Below, piece by piece: positions 16,590 to 28,836 of a stretch of 36,512 bases of DNA. Within the stretch, counting starts at the first letter, position 1. The number at the start of each line of letters is the position of its first letter. Below the pieces are notes generated by a model, which saw nothing but the letters and a program-made list of their open reading frames with translations, made no database searches and had not been told where the DNA came from. Source of the DNA: Candidatus Hydrogenedentota bacterium (GTDB taxonomy: Bacteria > Hydrogenedentota > Hydrogenedentia > Hydrogenedentales > JAJRTN01); NCBI GenBank assembly GCA_024278275.1, contig JAJRTN010000134.1, forward strand, positions 1 to 36,512, in the 5' to 3' direction. The translations under genes and the position numbers were made by a program.

Positions 16590-19500
16590 TTATCGAATAA
16601 TCGGATCGCCCCATAGCGCCCAGTCGCAGGTTTGCGTGCCGTCGGAATCGGTGATGAGGCTGATCACCACGGGTTTTCCCGCGAAACCGGAAAGGGGACA
16701 GGTGATTTCCTTCCAGGGCCCGGGGAGCACGGACTCACGGGCCAGTTCGATACCGTTCACCGTTACGATAAAGGTCACCTCCCCCAGGTCGGCGCCGTCG
16801 CGAAGACCCACGTAGCCGTGGAAGGTGCTGTCACCGGCGGGCAGCATCGCGGGGAAGTCGGCCCGGGTGCGTCCGAAATTGGGCGGATGGGCAAAAAGCG
16901 CCCGCCGTTCGACCCCGTCCACGGCGGCGGTGACCACCCGGATGCCCGCGTAGCGGGGGTTCTCGATGACGCCCCCCCCATCGGAGAGGATCGTCACGAT
17001 GGGCTTCGCGGCGACCAAATCCCAGGGCAGGCTCACCCTGGCGGGAAGGGTCTTGAGAAAACAGGTTGTGCCGGGGAAGTTCGCCTTCAGCGTGGTTTCG
17101 GCCTTTTCTCCGGCCAGGGTTTGCAGCCCACGCGCCCCCAGGGCATAACGCCACGGCCGCAAACCGCCCACCGCCATGGGGCCCGTGGCGTGCGCCGCGC
17201 GTTCGACACGGGGCGCGCGCCACCGCGCCCAGTCGAAGCTCGGGCTGCGCTTCGGTCCGGGGTCCACGGTCAGTTCCAGGGCCACCTTTTTCCCGGCGTA
17301 TTTTTCCAGGTCCAGGCGCAACGGCATGGGTGCCGATCCTGCCTGGTAAACAGACTCGCCATCCTCGTCGCCGTGGGAACGCACGTACACGCCAAAGACA
17401 ACGCCATCGCTCTTGCCTTCGCCCGTGGCGCGTTCGGCAAGGGCCACGGTGGCCGCGAAATGGGTGACATCCTCGGGCAGGTCCAGGTCAAACCGCGCAT
17501 ACGTAACGCCGGAGCCCCCGGTCCGCCACGGCGGGTGTGCCCGCAGCAGGTCATCCTCCGGCTCGAACTGGGCGCCATCCTCCGAGTCGGAATAGAGCGG
17601 TCCCGTCACTTCCTCGCCCCCGCCGTCAAAGCGGCGTGAACCACACGTCGCCCGGTCCATCATGGTGGCAAGGTTCAGGTTCATATTTCGTGCGGGCCGG
17701 GTCTGCACGAAAGCCAGTTCGGGGGTCTCGGCCACCGCCCCGACCGTAAAGCCCTCGGGCAGGCTCGCCACATGAAGCACGGAGGAATCCCGCGGTTCGT
17801 CGAAATAGGGATACCACCGGGTGGGTTCCAGGCCAATCAGTGCCGTTTCGTTGAAGCCGCGCCACCCCTCTATCGTGCCGGGCAGGGCGACGGAGGATAC
17901 GCCGAAAAGGGTCCGGCTTACCGTGGTGTCGCCGTACATCAAGCGTCCGTCCCGCATGTCGTAGACGGGTTTTCCCCCGGCGGTGCGGTAGGGGAAGGCC
18001 ACGCCCGCCGGCCACGGACCATCGAGGGCCGGGTCCACCCGTTCCCGCGTGAAGAACCGGGCTTCTTCGAGAAACTGGCGCGTGAAGCCCCGGGGCGTCT
18101 GCAATTCGGCCCGAACCGGTTTCAGGGTGGGGATGATGCCCCAGTTGCGGTAGGCCTCGTCCCAGGCGGAGTACATCTCGGGCGTCGAGGGAGCTGCGCA
18201 GCCGAGGTAGCCGTACAGGATGGTGAAGGGCCGCATAAGGTACGACGCGATGGGGTGGGCCATGCGCAAACGGGCCAGGTGATAGGTGCTGTCGTGATGG
18301 CTGAGCCCCCAGGCATGGCGCTGGGCGAAAGCCTCGTAGCGCATGGTGATTTCGTTCAGGCCCTCGCCGCTGAGGGCGACTTGGGGCAGGGCCTCACGCA
18401 ACTCCCGGTGCAGGGCCAACGCGCCCTCCGCCATGGTCATCCCGTCGATGAGTCCATTGTGGTCGTTGTAAATGGCCAGCGTCTGATCCAGATGGAGGGC
18501 GTCCACCTGGAGGTCCTCGCACAGCGCCACCATGCGCGCGATGAAAAGATCGCGCCAGGGCTTGTAGGCCGGGTTGATGTAGGCGAACTTGATGACCGGG
18601 TCGGCCCGCTCCCACAGCCACCATTCCTTCTTGTGATCGCCAAAGGGATTGCGCACCTGGTAGGGCGCGAATTGCGGGTAGACCGGGTTCAGCGGATCGA
18701 CGCCGAAATAGTTGACGTGCAGCATAATACGAAAACCCAACTCATGGGCGCGCTCGATGAAAGGCCGTACGTTGGGCGCGTACCGATCGTATTCCGGGTA
18801 GTTGCGATCATAGCCCGCCGCCCGCCACGAAGGGATATAGATCAGCGTCTGCGACGGGTCCACCCGCTTCGCCAGGATCTCCAGCGTATCCAAATCCTGG
18901 CCCATGATGACGCACACCCGCGTATCTTTCACCCACGCCGGCGTCTGTTTCTCCACGGGAACGGGGCGCATGTGCCTGACCGTCCAATCGCGGTAACGCC
19001 GGGCGGGCACACGCCAGTCGCCCGTGTACGTGCCGATGCGCCAAGGCAGGCTGGGCGTGCTGTTCTGCCTGTCGAAGGGCGCCTGGGGCATAACCATGAA
19101 GCCCAGCCGCCACCCCGTGTTACTCCGCTCGATGGACACCCGTTTGAAATGGCTTTTCGTGTCTTCCGCCCAAACATAAAACCCGCCTTCGGAGCCTTCG
19201 ACGATGATCAGCGAGTTGGTCCAGGTGATGGGATAATCGAATTTCCATGCCCGACCCGGGGAATCCTTCGTCAGCTTCATCCCTGACACGGCGGGCACGA
19301 TGATGTTCATCTCCAGGGGGATTTCGCCGACAAACCACTCCAGTCCCCACACGCCTTTCTTACGGGAAGTCAGTTCATGACGAAGCACCACCTCATGCTC
19401 CGACTCCCCGTAGCGCCCCACGACACGGGTTCCCTTTTCGCCCTCCGCCAGCACATAGCGCGCCGACAGGCCTTCGGCGGCCCCGTCGAAACGGGCCTCA

Positions 19501-19712
19501 TGATCCCCGTCCAGCCGGTGCAGCACGAGGCCGGTTTTCACCGCGCCCGGCCGTACGAGTTGGGTGCCTTCCTGGTCCCGAAGGCTGATCAACCCGCCAT
19601 CGCGGAGGCGGTAGGTCGCACCGCCAGCGGTTTGCGACAGATCGTATTGCGCCGAAGTGGCGGGGACGGCCAACAGGCCCATCAGAATGGCGGCAAACAG
19701 GTAACGGTGCAT
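16590..19712 (-). CDS. Large secreted glycoside-hydrolase-like protein (DUF6259 type)
   Basis: 1040 residues from the ATG at 19712, with GGGGGAG 8 bases upstream. An Sec signal peptide, MHRYLFAAILMGLLAVPATSA, is followed by QYDLS. The first part is a beta-rich domain. Residues of about 270-620 look like a TIM barrel: VCVIMGQDLDTLE, IYIPSWRAAGYDRN, GFRIMLHVNYFG, VDALHLDQTLAIYNDHNG and QVALSGEGLNE, whose Asp and Glu are candidate catalytic residues. The rest is beta-sandwich, with a jelly-roll-like segment (ARFDLDLPEDVTHFAATVAL) resembling NPCBM-type sugar-binding domains. It probably acts on glycans outside the cytoplasm. A TACAAT at 19766-19771 (minus strand) could be a -10 box. It lies 105 bases before the acyltransferase gene, so it may lead the operon or be separate. 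The DUF6259 call is from memory of family style. Confidence 0.75.
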   Translation of the reverse strand: MHRYLFAAILMGLLAVPATSAQYDLSQTAGGATYRLRDGGLISLRDQEGTQLVRPGAVKTGLVLHRLDGDHEARFDGAAEGLSARYVLAEGEKGTRVVGRYGESEHEVVLRHELTSRKKGVWGLEWFVGEIPLEMNIIVPAVSGMKLTKDSPGRAWKFDYPITWTNSLIIVEGSEGGFYVWAEDTKSHFKRVSIERSNTGWRLGFMVMPQAPFDRQNSTPSLPWRIGTYTGDWRVPARRYRDWTVRHMRPVPVEKQTPAWVKDTRVCVIMGQDLDTLEILAKRVDPSQTLIYIPSWRAAGYDRNYPEYDRYAPNVRPFIERAHELGFRIMLHVNYFGVDPLNPVYPQFAPYQVRNPFGDHKKEWWLWERADPVIKFAYINPAYKPWRDLFIARMVALCEDLQVDALHLDQTLAIYNDHNGLIDGMTMAEGALALHRELREALPQVALSGEGLNEITMRYEAFAQRHAWGLSHHDSTYHLARLRMAHPIASYLMRPFTILYGYLGCAAPSTPEMYSAWDEAYRNWGIIPTLKPVRAELQTPRGFTRQFLEEARFFTRERVDPALDGPWPAGVAFPYRTAGGKPVYDMRDGRLMYGDTTVSRTLFGVSSVALPGTIEGWRGFNETALIGLEPTRWYPYFDEPRDSSVLHVASLPEGFTVGAVAETPELAFVQTRPARNMNLNLATMMDRATCGSRRFDGGGEEVTGPLYSDSEDGAQFEPEDDLLRAHPPWRTGGSGVTYARFDLDLPEDVTHFAATVALAERATGEGKSDGVVFGVYVRSHGDEDGESVYQAGSAPMPLRLDLEKYAGKKVALELTVDPGPKRSPSFDWARWRAPRVERAAHATGPMAVGGLRPWRYALGARGLQTLAGEKAETTLKANFPGTTCFLKTLPARVSLPWDLVAAKPIVTILSDGGGVIENPRYAGIRVVTAAVDGVERRALFAHPPNFGRTRADFPAMLPAGDSTFHGYVGLRDGADLGEVTFIVTVNGIELARESVLPGPWKEITCPLSGFAGKPVVISLITDSDGTQTCDWALWGDPIIR

Positions 19713-19799
19713 GGGTGTCGCTCCCCCGCGTAATGCGGCGTGGGTGTGTCTTGGAAACCAAGGCCATTGTAGCGGGAAAAGGGCCACGGAGGGAAAAGC

Positions 19800-19825
19800 A
19801 ACGCCCCCCGGTCTCGGGGGGCGTT
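19800..19825 (-). terminator. Intrinsic terminator of the PEP-CTERM gene
   Basis: AACGCCCCCCG-GTCT-CGGGGGGCGTT is a perfect 11-bp stem with a 4-base loop. On the minus strand it is followed by GCTTTTCCC, a short T run. It starts 31 bases after the PEP-CTERM stop and separates that gene from the DUF6259-like gene. Confidence 0.8.
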
Positions 19826-19855
19826 GAAAGCAGCGGACCGTTCTATCGCGTTGAT

Positions 19856-20755
19856 CTAGCTTTGTTTGCGCGCGCGGCGCACGGCAAGCCCCACCATGCC
19901 CAGCCCCAGCAGGGTAAGGGTGGCGGGTTCGGGAACGGGGGGCCCTCCGGGCACGGTGGCCAAACCCCGAATGTCGACATAGGGTCCGTCATTGACGAGT
20001 GCTAAAACCCCCGTCAGGGGGTTAATCGTGTAGAGGTCGCCGATGGCCGCGCCATACAACGTCCCATCCTCGGCGAAGTTCAGCGCTTGAATGGGCGCTC
20101 CACTCGGATCGGAATTCACGGGCGAGGCCGCTCCCGTCAAACGGTCTATCGTCACAAGGCCTTGGCCCACGTCGAAACCCGTGTGGCTTACGTCCCAGCC
20201 GTAAAGTGTGTCATCCGGGGCGAATGCCAACCCCTGGATGCCACGAAGTCCTGTCCAGCCAATGGACGTTGCCAAGCCTGTGTTCACATCAATCGTGAAA
20301 AGGTAATCATAGCCGATCAAATTCGCCTCGTAGGCGCCCATGTCGATTACGGCATACAGGGTGTCGCTCGCATCGAAGGCCAAGCCGCGCACCCCGTTGA
20401 AGGCCCCCCAATTACCCACGGCGAAGGGGTCGCCAGGAGCAGGGGCAATCGCTCCAACAGGCGTGCCGGCCCCGGTGATTGGATCTATGGTCAGCATGGG
20501 CGCGGCGGGATCGAACGCGGACCCTCCCGCGCTGTAGACCGTTCCCGCGCTGTCCACAGCCATGGCGTTCTGTGAGCTCCAACCCGATGGACCAATGGAG
20601 GTATGCAGCCCAGTCACTTCGTCAATCTGCCAAACCATGCCCGACCAGTCGATACCGATGGTATCGGCTTGGGCGCTGCCCAGAACGAACGACAAGCCCA
20701 CGAAAACAAGCCCGGCCACGATCAACCTGTGTTTCAGTGTAGTTTTCCCTGTCAT
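19856..20755 (-). CDS. PEP-CTERM sorting-domain protein with beta-propeller-like repeats
   Basis: 299 residues from the ATG at 20755 (GGAGG 9 bases upstream). A signal peptide, TLKHRLIVAGLVFVGLSFVLGSAQA, is followed by four or five repeats of about 45-60 residues with the pattern G-L-A-F-x-x-D-D-T-L-Y-x...L-x-T-I-D-x-x-T-G (for example GLAFAPDDTLYG...LVTIDRLTG), which suggests a beta-propeller. The C-terminus is PVPEPATLTLLGLGMVGLAV followed by RRARKQS: the PEP motif, membrane helix and basic tail recognised by exosortases. It would be exported and processed at the outer surface, often together with exopolysaccharide. It has its own terminator (19800-19825) and a sigma-54 promoter (20881-20897), so it is regulated apart from its neighbours. 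An exosortase must be encoded elsewhere. Confidence 0.93.
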   Translation of the reverse strand: MTGKTTLKHRLIVAGLVFVGLSFVLGSAQADTIGIDWSGMVWQIDEVTGLHTSIGPSGWSSQNAMAVDSAGTVYSAGGSAFDPAAPMLTIDPITGAGTPVGAIAPAPGDPFAVGNWGAFNGVRGLAFDASDTLYAVIDMGAYEANLIGYDYLFTIDVNTGLATSIGWTGLRGIQGLAFAPDDTLYGWDVSHTGFDVGQGLVTIDRLTGAASPVNSDPSGAPIQALNFAEDGTLYGAAIGDLYTINPLTGVLALVNDGPYVDIRGLATVPGGPPVPEPATLTLLGLGMVGLAVRRARKQS

Positions 20756-20880
20756 GGCTTGCGTCCTCCCTGCGAGGCCCTCGACGGACACACGCATCCT
20801 TTCAGGTTTTTTAAAGAATCCACCACCATCGGTTCCCCGGTATGCGCGGCAACACGAATACAGCGCAATCGATGTAAAGT

Positions 20881-20897
20881 GAGCAAATCTCGTGCCA
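20881..20897 (-). promoter_or_regulatory. Sigma-54 (RpoN) promoter of the PEP-CTERM gene
   Basis: The minus strand reads TTGGCACGAGATTTGCT (20898-20882), agreeing at every fixed position with the sigma-54 consensus YTGGCACG-N4-TTGCW. GG at 20896-20895 and GC at 20884-20883 are separated by exactly 10 bases. The predicted start is near 20871, leaving a leader of about 116 bases before the ATG at 20755. Confidence 0.8.
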
Positions 20898-20935
20898 AAT
20901 GACTAAGAAATCGACATTATTGTTCATAAGATACT

Positions 20936-21016
20936 TTGATACAAGGACTTAGAGAAGATCTCGATCTGAGTATCAATACTTGATCCCTTGGAATGATCAA
21001 GCTTGATAGCCTTGAT
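20936..21016. promoter_or_regulatory. Candidate enhancer: clustered TTGAT/ATCAA half-sites
   Basis: Six TTGAT or ATCAA words lie within 81 bases, including two dyads: ATCAA-TAC-TTGAT (20972-20984) and ATCAAGCTTGAT (20996-21007). They are 65-145 bases upstream of the predicted sigma-54 start, where an enhancer-binding activator normally binds. This stretch is clearly AT-richer than its surroundings. No gene is seen in 20756-21166. Confidence 0.45.
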
Positions 21017-21166
21017 CGTCCAATGTTGCTCAATTATGACATATGTTTGACATTACGCCACAGCCCTTTTCAAACCAAAGCGTGAACCGGACACCATGAA
21101 ACGCACGGGCGTTACGGTCGGGCTGGATGGATGAACGGCCAGGCGCGTGGGGCGGGTTTGGACATA

Positions 21167-22669
21167 TCACCGGACCGTAATCCCCGCCACGTTGCCCACG
21201 GTTGTCAGGCGCGGGTCCTTCTCCGTCAATGGGCGGTCGTTGATGATCACGTCCTTGAAGACGATATCCTGGATGCGCCGCTCACCCGACTGGTCCATGA
21301 TCAGTATCTCCGGGTTTGCCACCCCCGAGGCGCGGATTTTCTCGAAGACCACCCCCTCGATGGCCGAGAAGGGGCGGTCGGGAAAGAAATGAACGCTTTC
21401 CTTCGGCTCCTTCACGTTGTACACCACGATCAGCGGACGCATGGAGGCGCAGCGTTCGACCGTGATGTTCTCGAACCGCACGTTTCGGACCGTGCCCCCC
21501 ATGGCGGGGTGGATGAAGATTGCGCCGCGCGAGGTGATGCCTTCGTAGGGGTTATAACGATAGGTGTAATGGAGCACCGTCATGTCACGCCAGGTGACAT
21601 CCGTCACGAGACCGTCGATTTCATGGCACACGCCCATGGTGGTGCCCGCGTCGCACCAGACCTGGCTCTTCTCTAAGACAATCCCGCGGCCTTTTGACTT
21701 CACTTCGTAACAATCGTCCGCGGTGTGAATGAAACAGTTCGTGACCGTGCAATCCCGGCAGGAGTGCAGGCAGATACCGTCGGAATTGGTGAAGTAGCCC
21801 AACACGCGCACCCGTTCCAGGAGGCTGTCGCGGCAGTCGTGCATCAGAAGGGTCCAACCGGTCGCACGGGTGAAGACAACGCCTTGCATCCGCAGGTTCT
21901 TCATCCGCGAACCCTGGAACAGGCCAAAACGCCGTCCCGCGGGCAAGCCGCGCTCGCCCGACACGATCCCGCGCCCCCGGATGGTGATGTTATCGCCGGT
22001 CGCCTGAATGGCCGTGGTGGCCGCGTAGTACGCCTCACCGGTGTAGTGCCGTTTCTTATGGGGAAGGCGAAGCCGGGCAGGGCAGGGTCGGAGAACCGCG
22101 CCGCCGGCGAGGTAGAGGGTCTGCCCCGCCTTCAACTCCAGGGCTTCCACGTCATGCACGCCCGGCCCGAAGTAACGAACTCCGGGATCGTCCTGGCGCG
22201 GAATATCGGTTTCGGGCCGGTTGGTGAAGAGGTGCAACACGCACAGGCCCGTGCCGTCCGGGTCCAGGGTCACGTCGCCCGGACGGTCCAGGGTGAACTC
22301 GACCGTGTTCCCGGCGATGCGCGGCTTGATGGCCAATGCCAGGGGCCGCACTTTCAGGCCGTCCAGGTTGTCGAGTAACCGTGACTTCAAGGTCGCCCGG
22401 ACAGTCACCGCGCCCTCGAAGTCAAAGATGGCATAGGCCTGGGGAGATACCTTCATTTTGAAGAGGCCTGGCGGAAAGCCCGTGTTCAGCCGGTAATCCC
22501 CGTGGCAAAAGACCTCGCGGCCCTCGACCTCCAGCCGCCAATCCTCCGACGCCGCGATGCCCTCCGGCGCGGGAAAGATCACCGCCCGGCCCTCGCGGCG
22601 GCTTGGGGGAGGCAGCGAGACCATGGCCGCCAGGGCCGCGCTTCTCTTGAGCATGTTTCTCCGGTTCAT
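21167..22669 (-). CDS. GH28-like right-handed beta-helix protein (polygalacturonase fold)
   Basis: 500 residues. The N-terminus MNRRNMLKRSAALAAMVSL has two Arg and a hydrophobic stretch, a Tat-like signal, so export is likely. A beta-sandwich domain covers about 40-165, and the parallel beta-helix follows. YFTNSDGICLHSC (N-x-D) and FIHTADDCYEVKS (D-D) match the first two catalytic motifs of GH28. The expected G-H-G is replaced by GTTMGVCHEID, and the R-I-K motif by SRGAIFIHP. Either the substrate differs from polygalacturonan or catalysis is altered. The ATG at 22669 has only a weak Shine-Dalgarno; a second ATG at 22654 is preceded by GGAG but would cut the twin-Arg motif. It lies 78 bases after the lipoprotein gene, so they are probably co-transcribed. 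Confidence 0.82.
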   Translation of the reverse strand: MNRRNMLKRSAALAAMVSLPPPSRREGRAVIFPAPEGIAASEDWRLEVEGREVFCHGDYRLNTGFPPGLFKMKVSPQAYAIFDFEGAVTVRATLKSRLLDNLDGLKVRPLALAIKPRIAGNTVEFTLDRPGDVTLDPDGTGLCVLHLFTNRPETDIPRQDDPGVRYFGPGVHDVEALELKAGQTLYLAGGAVLRPCPARLRLPHKKRHYTGEAYYAATTAIQATGDNITIRGRGIVSGERGLPAGRRFGLFQGSRMKNLRMQGVVFTRATGWTLLMHDCRDSLLERVRVLGYFTNSDGICLHSCRDCTVTNCFIHTADDCYEVKSKGRGIVLEKSQVWCDAGTTMGVCHEIDGLVTDVTWRDMTVLHYTYRYNPYEGITSRGAIFIHPAMGGTVRNVRFENITVERCASMRPLIVVYNVKEPKESVHFFPDRPFSAIEGVVFEKIRASGVANPEILIMDQSGERRIQDIVFKDVIINDRPLTEKDPRLTTVGNVAGITVR

Positions 22670-26658: not shown

Positions 26659-28836
26659 TCAGCACCGGGTGGCGTCATTGCTTTTTTCGTCTTGGGCCAT
26701 CAATTCCTGCAGGGCGGTGACGAGACCGGCGGATCGGTAGGGTTTCTGAAGGAAACCGGCAAAACCGGAGAGATCCGTCCGGCTGGCCAGGTCGTCGCGT
26801 CCGTAGCCGCTGGAAAGAAGCACGGGCAGGCCAGGCATGAGTGCGTCAATCTGCTTGCGGGTTTCGGTGGATTCAAGGCCGGGCATCTGGTGGTCGAGGA
26901 CCACGCAACCCACGTGATCCAGGCTCTGGGCAAGCACTTGGAGGGCATCGTCGCCGCTGGTGGCGGTGAGTACGGGGATGCCGAGCATTTCCAGGTATTC
27001 ACTGGCCACTTCCAGCACGGCGGTATCGTCATCGACGAGGAGCACGGCCCGTTCGCCATGCCAGGCGGGGGCGGGGGCTGTCCGGGCGACATCACTCAAC
27101 AGGGCGGGCAGCAGTATGCGGACGCACGTACCCTTGCCGGGGGTGCTTTCCAGGTCAATGACCCCCTGGTGACTGCGAACGGTTCCCTGGACGGCGGCCA
27201 GGCCCAGGCCCCGACCCGTGGAGTGGGTGGAAAAGAAAGGCTCAAAAGCCCTTTCGCGGGTTTCCCCATCCATGCCGATGCCTTCGTCCCGGACCGTTAT
27301 GGCCACATAGCGGCCGGCGGGCAGGGCGTCCCGCGGGGCATAGACGGCGAGTTCCCGGGCGGTCATGTCCACGGCGGATGTGTGAAGGGTTAACGTATTG
27401 CCCTGTTTGCTCATGGCTTCCGCGGCGTTGGTGACCAGGTTCATGATAACCTGTTTGAGTTGTTTCCCGTCACCCTCGACTTTGGGCAGGCCTTCGGCCA
27501 GATCCAGGCGAAGGTCGATCCGGTCGCCCGTGGCCGCCTTGATGAGATGTTTCATGCCGCGAATCAGGGCTGACAGGTCGATGGGTTGGACCGCCAGGGG
27601 GCCGCGGCCGCTGTAGTCCAACATTTCCCGTGTAAGCCGCGCGGCACGCTGAGCCGTGGCTTCGACCATGGCCAAACGTTCCGCCGCGGGCGAATCGGCC
27701 GGAACCTCGAGCATGGCCAGTTCCACGTTGCCCTGAAGACTCATGAAAAGGTTGTTGAATTCGTGGGCGATTCCGCCGGCCAGTACCCCCAGGCTTTCCA
27801 TTCGCTGGGCCTGTTGGGCACGCTCTTCCAGGGTGCGTCGTTCCTTTTCCTGGCGGCGGTGTTCCGTAATATCCATGCCCGAGACCAGCATTCCCGAGAT
27901 GGCGCCTTCGTCGTCGAGGAGTACCTGGTTGTGCCACAGGACCAGCCGCTCTTCACCGGACGCCGTGACCAGGGACTGCTCAAAGCGGCCGGTGGGCGCG
28001 CGCCCACCGGCAATGACGGCCCGAAAGCGATCCCACACCCTCTCCCGGTCCCGTTCGGGAAGAAGGGTTTCTGTAAATGGCCGTCCCTCCAGGCTCCCCT
28101 CGGGATAGCCCAGCAGCGCGTAACCGCTTCTATTGAGCAGCGTGATTTGCCCGTCCAAATCCAGTCGGGCAATGAGTTCACCCGCCACGTCAAGATACTG
28201 CTGCGCTTGGTCCCGTTCTTCCCGAACCGCCCGACGCGATTGGGTCAATTCGGCAACAGAATGGCTCAGGGCCCGGGTTTTTTCCGCCAGGTTACGCCGG
28301 TAGCGGTCCGCCTGAAACAGACAGAGGTAGAAGGTCAACACCAGGAGTGCCAAACCCATGTGGAGCATAAAGTTCAGGGCCTCGGCACGTAACGCGAAAT
28401 TGGGATCCAGCAGGGCAAACCTTTGCAACCAGGGCGGCGGATCCAACTGGTAGAGGACGTCAAAAGCCTGTGACAGCACGATAAAGGCCATGGCCGTCGC
28501 GGCCGTCAGGCTGATATACCACACGCGGTAAATGGCATGGGCCACGAGAAGCGGGGGAATACCGATGCACAGGGCCGCACCCAACGCCAACGACCCGGTC
28601 AGGGCCACATGAGGGCCGCCTTGCGCGTCCAGCCAAAAGTACGCGAGCAGGAACACTATCCCCGCGAGCGTGCTCAATAGGGCTCCCCAGGAAAGCATGG
28701 GGTGCGTTCGGCGCATTTCCTCGGTGGCGGACGTCACCGCAGCCTGTCTCCCCGGGCGTGCCGGAACCATAAAACGGGGCCCTATCCCCGTGCCCTTTGG
28801 CGTGCCACGCCGGTTATCAACGGTTCGTGCATACAT
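26659..28836 (-). CDS. Hybrid sensor histidine kinase with PAS and receiver domains
   Basis: 725 residues. Four membrane helices lie within about residues 50-172, then a short coiled coil (176-215), a PAS domain (about 212-325, ending in the PAC-like MDITEHRRQE), a dimerisation/phosphoacceptor domain with His358 in GGIAHEFNNLF, and an ATPase domain with N-box N466/N470, DEGIGM (517-522) and GRGLGLA (541-547). A receiver domain follows from about 597, with DDD at 602-604, phosphoacceptor Asp648 in VVLDHQMPG and Lys698. It senses a signal at or in the membrane and passes phosphate to its own receiver; no output domain follows, so an unlinked partner is needed. ATG 28836 is accepted because a sigma-70 promoter sits about 40 bases upstream; later ATGs lack better ribosome sites. 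The stop faces the YfhO-like gene tail to tail. Confidence 0.92.
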   Translation of the reverse strand: MYARTVDNRRGTPKGTGIGPRFMVPARPGRQAAVTSATEEMRRTHPMLSWGALLSTLAGIVFLLAYFWLDAQGGPHVALTGSLALGAALCIGIPPLLVAHAIYRVWYISLTAATAMAFIVLSQAFDVLYQLDPPPWLQRFALLDPNFALRAEALNFMLHMGLALLVLTFYLCLFQADRYRRNLAEKTRALSHSVAELTQSRRAVREERDQAQQYLDVAGELIARLDLDGQITLLNRSGYALLGYPEGSLEGRPFTETLLPERDRERVWDRFRAVIAGGRAPTGRFEQSLVTASGEERLVLWHNQVLLDDEGAISGMLVSGMDITEHRRQEKERRTLEERAQQAQRMESLGVLAGGIAHEFNNLFMSLQGNVELAMLEVPADSPAAERLAMVEATAQRAARLTREMLDYSGRGPLAVQPIDLSALIRGMKHLIKAATGDRIDLRLDLAEGLPKVEGDGKQLKQVIMNLVTNAAEAMSKQGNTLTLHTSAVDMTARELAVYAPRDALPAGRYVAITVRDEGIGMDGETRERAFEPFFSTHSTGRGLGLAAVQGTVRSHQGVIDLESTPGKGTCVRILLPALLSDVARTAPAPAWHGERAVLLVDDDTAVLEVASEYLEMLGIPVLTATSGDDALQVLAQSLDHVGCVVLDHQMPGLESTETRKQIDALMPGLPVLLSSGYGRDDLASRTDLSGFAGFLQKPYRSAGLVTALQELMAQDEKSNDATRC

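Follow-up and report, generated by a model that had tools for sequence, protein, structure and literature searches.

A predicted sigma-54 regulon of PEP-CTERM genes and its candidate exosortase-linked activator in Candidatus Hydrogenedentota

The window, i.e. the whole stretch of 36,512 nucleotides analysed here, carries on its minus strand a gene for a PEP-CTERM protein that is provided with its own predicted promoter and terminator:

19799-19826, minus strand: intrinsic terminator of the PEP-CTERM gene, a 12-pair stem with 10 G-C pairs, then CTTTT
19856-20755, minus strand: PEP-CTERM protein gene (299 aa), with a signal peptide, a C-terminal sorting signal and a weak DUF4394 match
20882-20898, minus strand: putative sigma-54 -24/-12 promoter TTGGCACG-AGAT-TTGCT, a perfect match to the consensus, with GG at 20896-20895 and GC at 20884-20883

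An earlier note, made from the DNA alone, had taken the gene to encode a PEP-CTERM protein, and the tail of the product indeed matches Pfam PF07589 above its cut-off (E 2e-7), in addition to the signal peptide. The ATG at 20755 is preceded by a good Shine-Dalgarno sequence, GGGAGGA, and the terminator stem is followed by CTTTTCCCTC. No homologue of the protein was found at E<=1e-8 in the 67 other genomes of the phylum. The neighbouring genes encode a large DUF6259/NPCBM protein (16590-19787, minus strand) and a GH28 (pectinase-family) protein (21167-22669, minus strand), flanks that may mark a polysaccharide-degradation neighbourhood. Further along, between glycosyltransferase and sugar-nucleotide genes, lies a hybrid histidine kinase with PAS, HisKA, HATPase and receiver domains (26659-28836, minus strand), for which there is no evidence of a link to the PEP-CTERM gene.

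The minus strand from 20898 to 20882 reads TTGGCACGAGATTTGCT, which has no mismatch to the sigma-54 consensus, keeps the GG-N10-GC spacing and lies on the same strand as the PEP-CTERM gene, within one base of the position given in the earlier note. It is the sole site of this quality in the window, the runners-up carrying two mismatches. Transcription would be expected to start near 20871, which leaves a 5' UTR some 116 nt long. The RpoN that such a promoter calls for, and whose presence the earlier note had left to be looked up, is encoded in the genome (L007), with the Sigma54_AID, CBD and DBD domains all above cut-off. The 5.35 Mb genome was searched by sequence pattern and by protein family; it holds 13 copies of the core TGGCACGNNNNTTGCW and none of the reversed pattern used as a control. 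By inspection, these exact cores precede rpoN, flgB-like and flgF/G-like genes, two type IV pilin genes, two PEP-CTERM genes (one of them that of the window), a SpoIIE-like phosphatase, a receiver-less sigma-54 activator and some others. Judged by its sequence, the promoter in the window is real and functional-looking.

The genome encodes 17 PEP-CTERM genes, 11 of which are preceded, on their coding strand, by a GG-N10-GC site with two mismatches or fewer. These 11 sites, all upstream, are the only such matches in about 100,000 positions scanned over the PEP-CTERM loci; the background rate is about 0.02 per gene (per 300 nt), giving P ~2e-15 for 11 of 17. Weaker sites of this kind precede three further PEP-CTERM genes (L050, L056 and L057). 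The motif is thus enriched ahead of other PEP-CTERM genes, as the earlier note had expected. The note had also described the gene, which has its own terminator, as an isolated regulon member. The gene is not a lone case, since most PEP-CTERM genes of the genome share its promoter architecture.

Upstream of the promoter are a palindrome common to the regulon and two dyads of ATCAA/TTGAT half-sites, none of them assigned to a strand:

20972-20984: dyad ATCAA-TAC-TTGAT, not matching the regulon palindrome (PWM score -8.2)
20992-21011: possible secondary, weaker copy of the palindrome, containing the dyad ATCAAGCTTGAT at 20996-21007 (PWM score 8.3, third-best in the window)
21025-21044: predicted regulon-wide activator palindrome GTTGCTCA-ATTA-TGACATAT, on the coding strand ATATGTCA-TAAT-TGAGCAAC

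Plain k-mer enrichment in the PEP-CTERM promoters returned fragments only, and the shared element came from an unbiased gapped-palindrome scan of the 230 nt upstream of 12 PEP-CTERM sigma-54 sites. TCA-N4-TGA is present in nine of these 12 promoters versus 0.68 expected (z 10.8, against a shuffle maximum of 6.95), and in only one of 11 other exact sigma-54 promoters, that of the receiver-less activator (L010). The full shared element is approximately ATTGTTCA-N4-TGAACAAT. With a PWM trained solely on the activator promoters of relatives, the palindrome at 21025-21044 scores 17.6 bits, the best in the 36.5 kb (next best 9.7), with p=0.0025 against shuffles, which is the floor of the test. It lies just beyond the ATCAA/TTGAT cluster, some 163 bp ahead of the expected start. 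Applied to the upstream regions of the 17 PEP-CTERM genes, the same PWM picks out the palindrome in 12 (p<=0.0075); four of the genes (L051, L053, L058 and L059) have no clear palindrome within 450 nt. The promoter of the activator itself also has it (p=0.0125), and the other ten sigma-54 promoters do not (all p>=0.3). Matches to TTGTTCANNNNTGACAA with at most one mismatch occur at six places genome-wide, five of them upstream of PEP-CTERM genes. We predict the palindrome at 21025-21044 to be the activator site of the window's sigma-54 promoter.

The earlier note had assigned that role to the ATCAA/TTGAT half-sites, of which there are six (20936, 20972, 20980, 20996, 21003 and 21012), two pairs forming dyads. 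Their clustering is non-random, as dinucleotide shuffles of 20900-21060 give 1.4 half-sites (P = 0.001) and 0.004 dyads where six and two are seen. However, the genome has no more than five copies of ATCAA-N2/3-TTGAT, two in this cluster and three within open reading frames, and therefore the dyads cannot be the enhancer of the regulon; they are unique to the window's gene, found at no other PEP-CTERM promoter, and were rejected in that role in favour of the common palindrome. A weak second copy of the palindrome may reside at 20992-21011, while the dyad at 20972-20984 is perhaps the site of a bending protein or second regulator between enhancer and promoter. In a broader version of this idea, which is possible but tentative, the whole cluster would serve a second protein (IHF/HU bending or a repressor) that acts at this gene alone, on top of the common switch. 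This reading is consistent with the excess of half-sites, with the location of the cluster in the DNA of 30-38% GC that separates the palindrome from the -24 element, and with one site (20971-20983) being one mismatch from the IHF consensus; yet the IHF match is only a near one, and the phylum holds no orthologue of the gene in which conservation of the cluster could be followed.

The receiver-less activator whose promoter carries both an exact sigma-54 site and the palindrome is the first gene of a minus-strand run on contig C125, the contig that also encodes the exosortase (C125:4128-4886; PF09721 E 8e-64, 8TM_EpsH over cut-off). In order, the run comprises the activator, a polysaccharide export protein, a chain-length/tyrosine kinase, a WecG glycosyltransferase, a TPR protein, the exosortase, EpsI and a second TPR protein. 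The activator, of 345 aa, resembles receiver-less activators of the PspF type in having a short N-terminus, an AAA+ domain with GAFTGA, a Fis-type HTH and no receiver domain, but it scores 248 bits with the PspF model, whose cut-off is 443, and its context is exosortase rather than phage-shock genes. Similarly, the cluster has the content of XrtA-type exosortase/EPS clusters (exosortase, EpsI, polysaccharide export protein, tyrosine kinase, glycosyltransferase and TPR protein), although the exosortase falls below the XrtA cut-off (191 versus 208 bits), and the PrsT-like TPR proteins below that of PrsT.

Homologues of the activator at 52-64% identity come from Ca. Hydrogenedentota genomes, which bears out the earlier impression of a phylum distant from Proteobacteria; three of these homologues are filed under other organism names, which are probably wrong. 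On all sufficiently long contigs with an intact cluster, the activator orthologue stands first in the same set of exosortase-cluster genes. The palindrome core is found upstream of the orthologue in 14 of 18 cases, most of the 14 having a sigma-54-like site too. Nothing from the exosortase cluster lies within 10 kb of the more distant homologues (42-48% identity, from Zixibacteria and elsewhere), with the exception of one polysaccharide-export match in L169. Across 68 Hydrogenedentota genomes, with orthologues defined as activator matches above 300 bits, 30 genomes have both the activator and PEP-CTERM proteins, 31 have neither, one has the activator only and six have PEP-CTERM proteins only, four of these six genomes being at most 84% complete. 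Fisher's test gives P 3e-12 for the co-occurrence, a value that overstates independence because the genomes share ancestry. With matrices trained on the window's genome, both elements (each p<=0.05) are found in 15 of 24 PEP-CTERM genes of activator-bearing relatives, an approximate count as automatic start calling misread L194, L197, L198, L199 and L209, of which L194 and L199 read better separately. The two PEP-CTERM genes examined from activator-lacking genomes (L187 and L199) have neither a sigma-54 site nor the palindrome.

The promoters, the palindrome, the synteny and the co-occurrence are read from sequence, and in our view the region in the window is very probably an enhancer-dependent promoter belonging to a genome-wide, exosortase-linked sigma-54 PEP-CTERM regulon run by the C125 activator. 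We infer that the palindrome is bound by this activator, which would occupy ATTGTTCA-N4-TGAACAAT about 110-170 bp (in one gene more than 200 bp) upstream of the start of PEP-CTERM genes and of its own gene. From there it would loop to the -24/-12 site and drive RpoN-RNA polymerase into the open complex. The activator promoter carries the same two elements, and the activator would therefore be made together with the exosortase substrates, probably along with the products of the downstream polysaccharide-export, tyrosine-kinase, glycosyltransferase, TPR, exosortase and EpsI genes. This model has the exosortase cluster presumably transcribed as a single unit and the activator positively autoregulated. 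Lacking a receiver domain, the activator is probably regulated, by analogy with PspF, through a partner protein, or else through its own level in the cell.

Some control must lie above an activator without a receiver, and the genome encodes about 20 other sigma-54 activators, one of which could be the true binder. The palindrome in the promoter of the C125 activator would also be explained if another activator, of the response-regulator type, controlled both the PEP-CTERM genes and the C125 activator in a cascade, and in some relatives (G028 and G004) a second activator does lie close to the C125 orthologue. Nevertheless, we consider such a cascade unlikely. The C125 activator is the only one that is tied to the exosortase cluster and tracks the presence of PEP-CTERM proteins over the 68 genomes, and motif inspection of the loci of seven relatives revealed no kinase motif and no conserved gene upstream of it, whether a sensor kinase such as PrsK (TIGR02916) or a second activator.

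In Proteobacteria, and in no other group that the 2006 survey covered, a sigma-54 motif and an upstream motif before PEP-CTERM genes have been described, tied to PrsK/PrsR/PrsT (Haft et al. 2006, PMC1569441), and RpoN dependence and the transcript start were later demonstrated for Aquincola pepA (PMC9850573). The Hydrogenedentota regulon appears to work like the PrsR regulon without being a member of it. In both, numerous single PEP-CTERM genes have -24/-12 sigma-54 promoters with a further element of 17 bp upstream as the enhancer, and a Fis-family activator is tied to exopolysaccharide/exosortase genes, with a TPR protein nearby. On the other hand, the Hydrogenedentota activator lacks a receiver domain and is not PrsR, its own gene is preceded by enhancer and sigma-54 site, the palindrome is TTGTTCA-N4-TGACAA where the proteobacterial motif ends in TTTACA, and the gap between enhancer and promoter is mostly 70-125 nt versus about 63 in the PrsK/PrsR regulon.

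It was from the proteobacterial precedent that the earlier note proposed a PrsK/PrsR-type activator. The shared logic of sigma-54 promoter, upstream enhancer and PEP-CTERM target (PMC1569441, PMC9850573), together with the non-random ATCAA/TTGAT dyads, speaks for a two-component system of this kind acting through the dyads. However, the best activator in the genome reaches 410 bits with the PrsR model (TIGR02915), whose cut-off is 502.6, none of the 68 Hydrogenedentota genomes encodes a protein over that cut-off, and PrsR was rejected as the activator; with the C125 activator itself, the NtrC and NifA models outscore the PrsR model. The dyads are confined to a single PEP-CTERM gene, and the palindrome common to the others is a different sequence. 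TTTACA, the part of the 17-nt proteobacterial motif 1 that was compared, shows no enrichment as a shared element (four seen where 2.2 are expected, P 0.18). We therefore regard the PrsK/PrsR explanation as highly improbable. A consensus match alone is weak evidence, but given the 13 genomic cores against none in the control and the 11 of 17 PEP-CTERM genes against 0.02 expected per gene, the idea that the perfect -24/-12 string is a chance match can practically be dismissed.

It is likely that the Hydrogenedentota evolved, independently of PrsK/PrsR, a sigma-54 PEP-CTERM regulon under an exosortase-cluster-linked, receiver-less and autoregulated activator with an operator of its own. If this is true, sigma-54 control of exosortase substrates arose at least twice, and the reappearance of this logic under another activator points to sigma-54 coupling of surface-protein supply to the sorting and polysaccharide machinery as a repeated solution. 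Searches of open-access journal literature found nothing on sigma-54 in Hydrogenedentota or on such a regulon, and by this measure the set of sigma-54 switches on most PEP-CTERM genes of the genome is previously unreported. For an uncultured phylum to which the PrsK/PrsR model cannot be carried over, it provides a defined operator together with a candidate activator and a list of target genes for exosortase substrates, and the palindrome is a means of finding exosortase-regulon genes from DNA alone.

Exact sigma-54 promoters are also found outside the PEP-CTERM genes. The promoter of rpoN itself (L007, G000:C84:40615) suggests autoregulation, and others precede flagellar rod genes resembling flgB/flgC and flgF/flgG (L001, G000:C3:57825; L011, G000:C136:8973). 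Another is that of L003 (G000:C31:8136), whose product resembles SpoIIE-type phosphatases, a possible link between sigma-54 and partner-switch signalling. The two type IV pilin genes with exact sites (L012, G000:C143:65459; L013, G000:C154:53438) have a different upstream palindrome (GTGACAAAAAATGTCAC; TGACGCTTTTTGTCA), which suggests a second, separate sigma-54 regulon.
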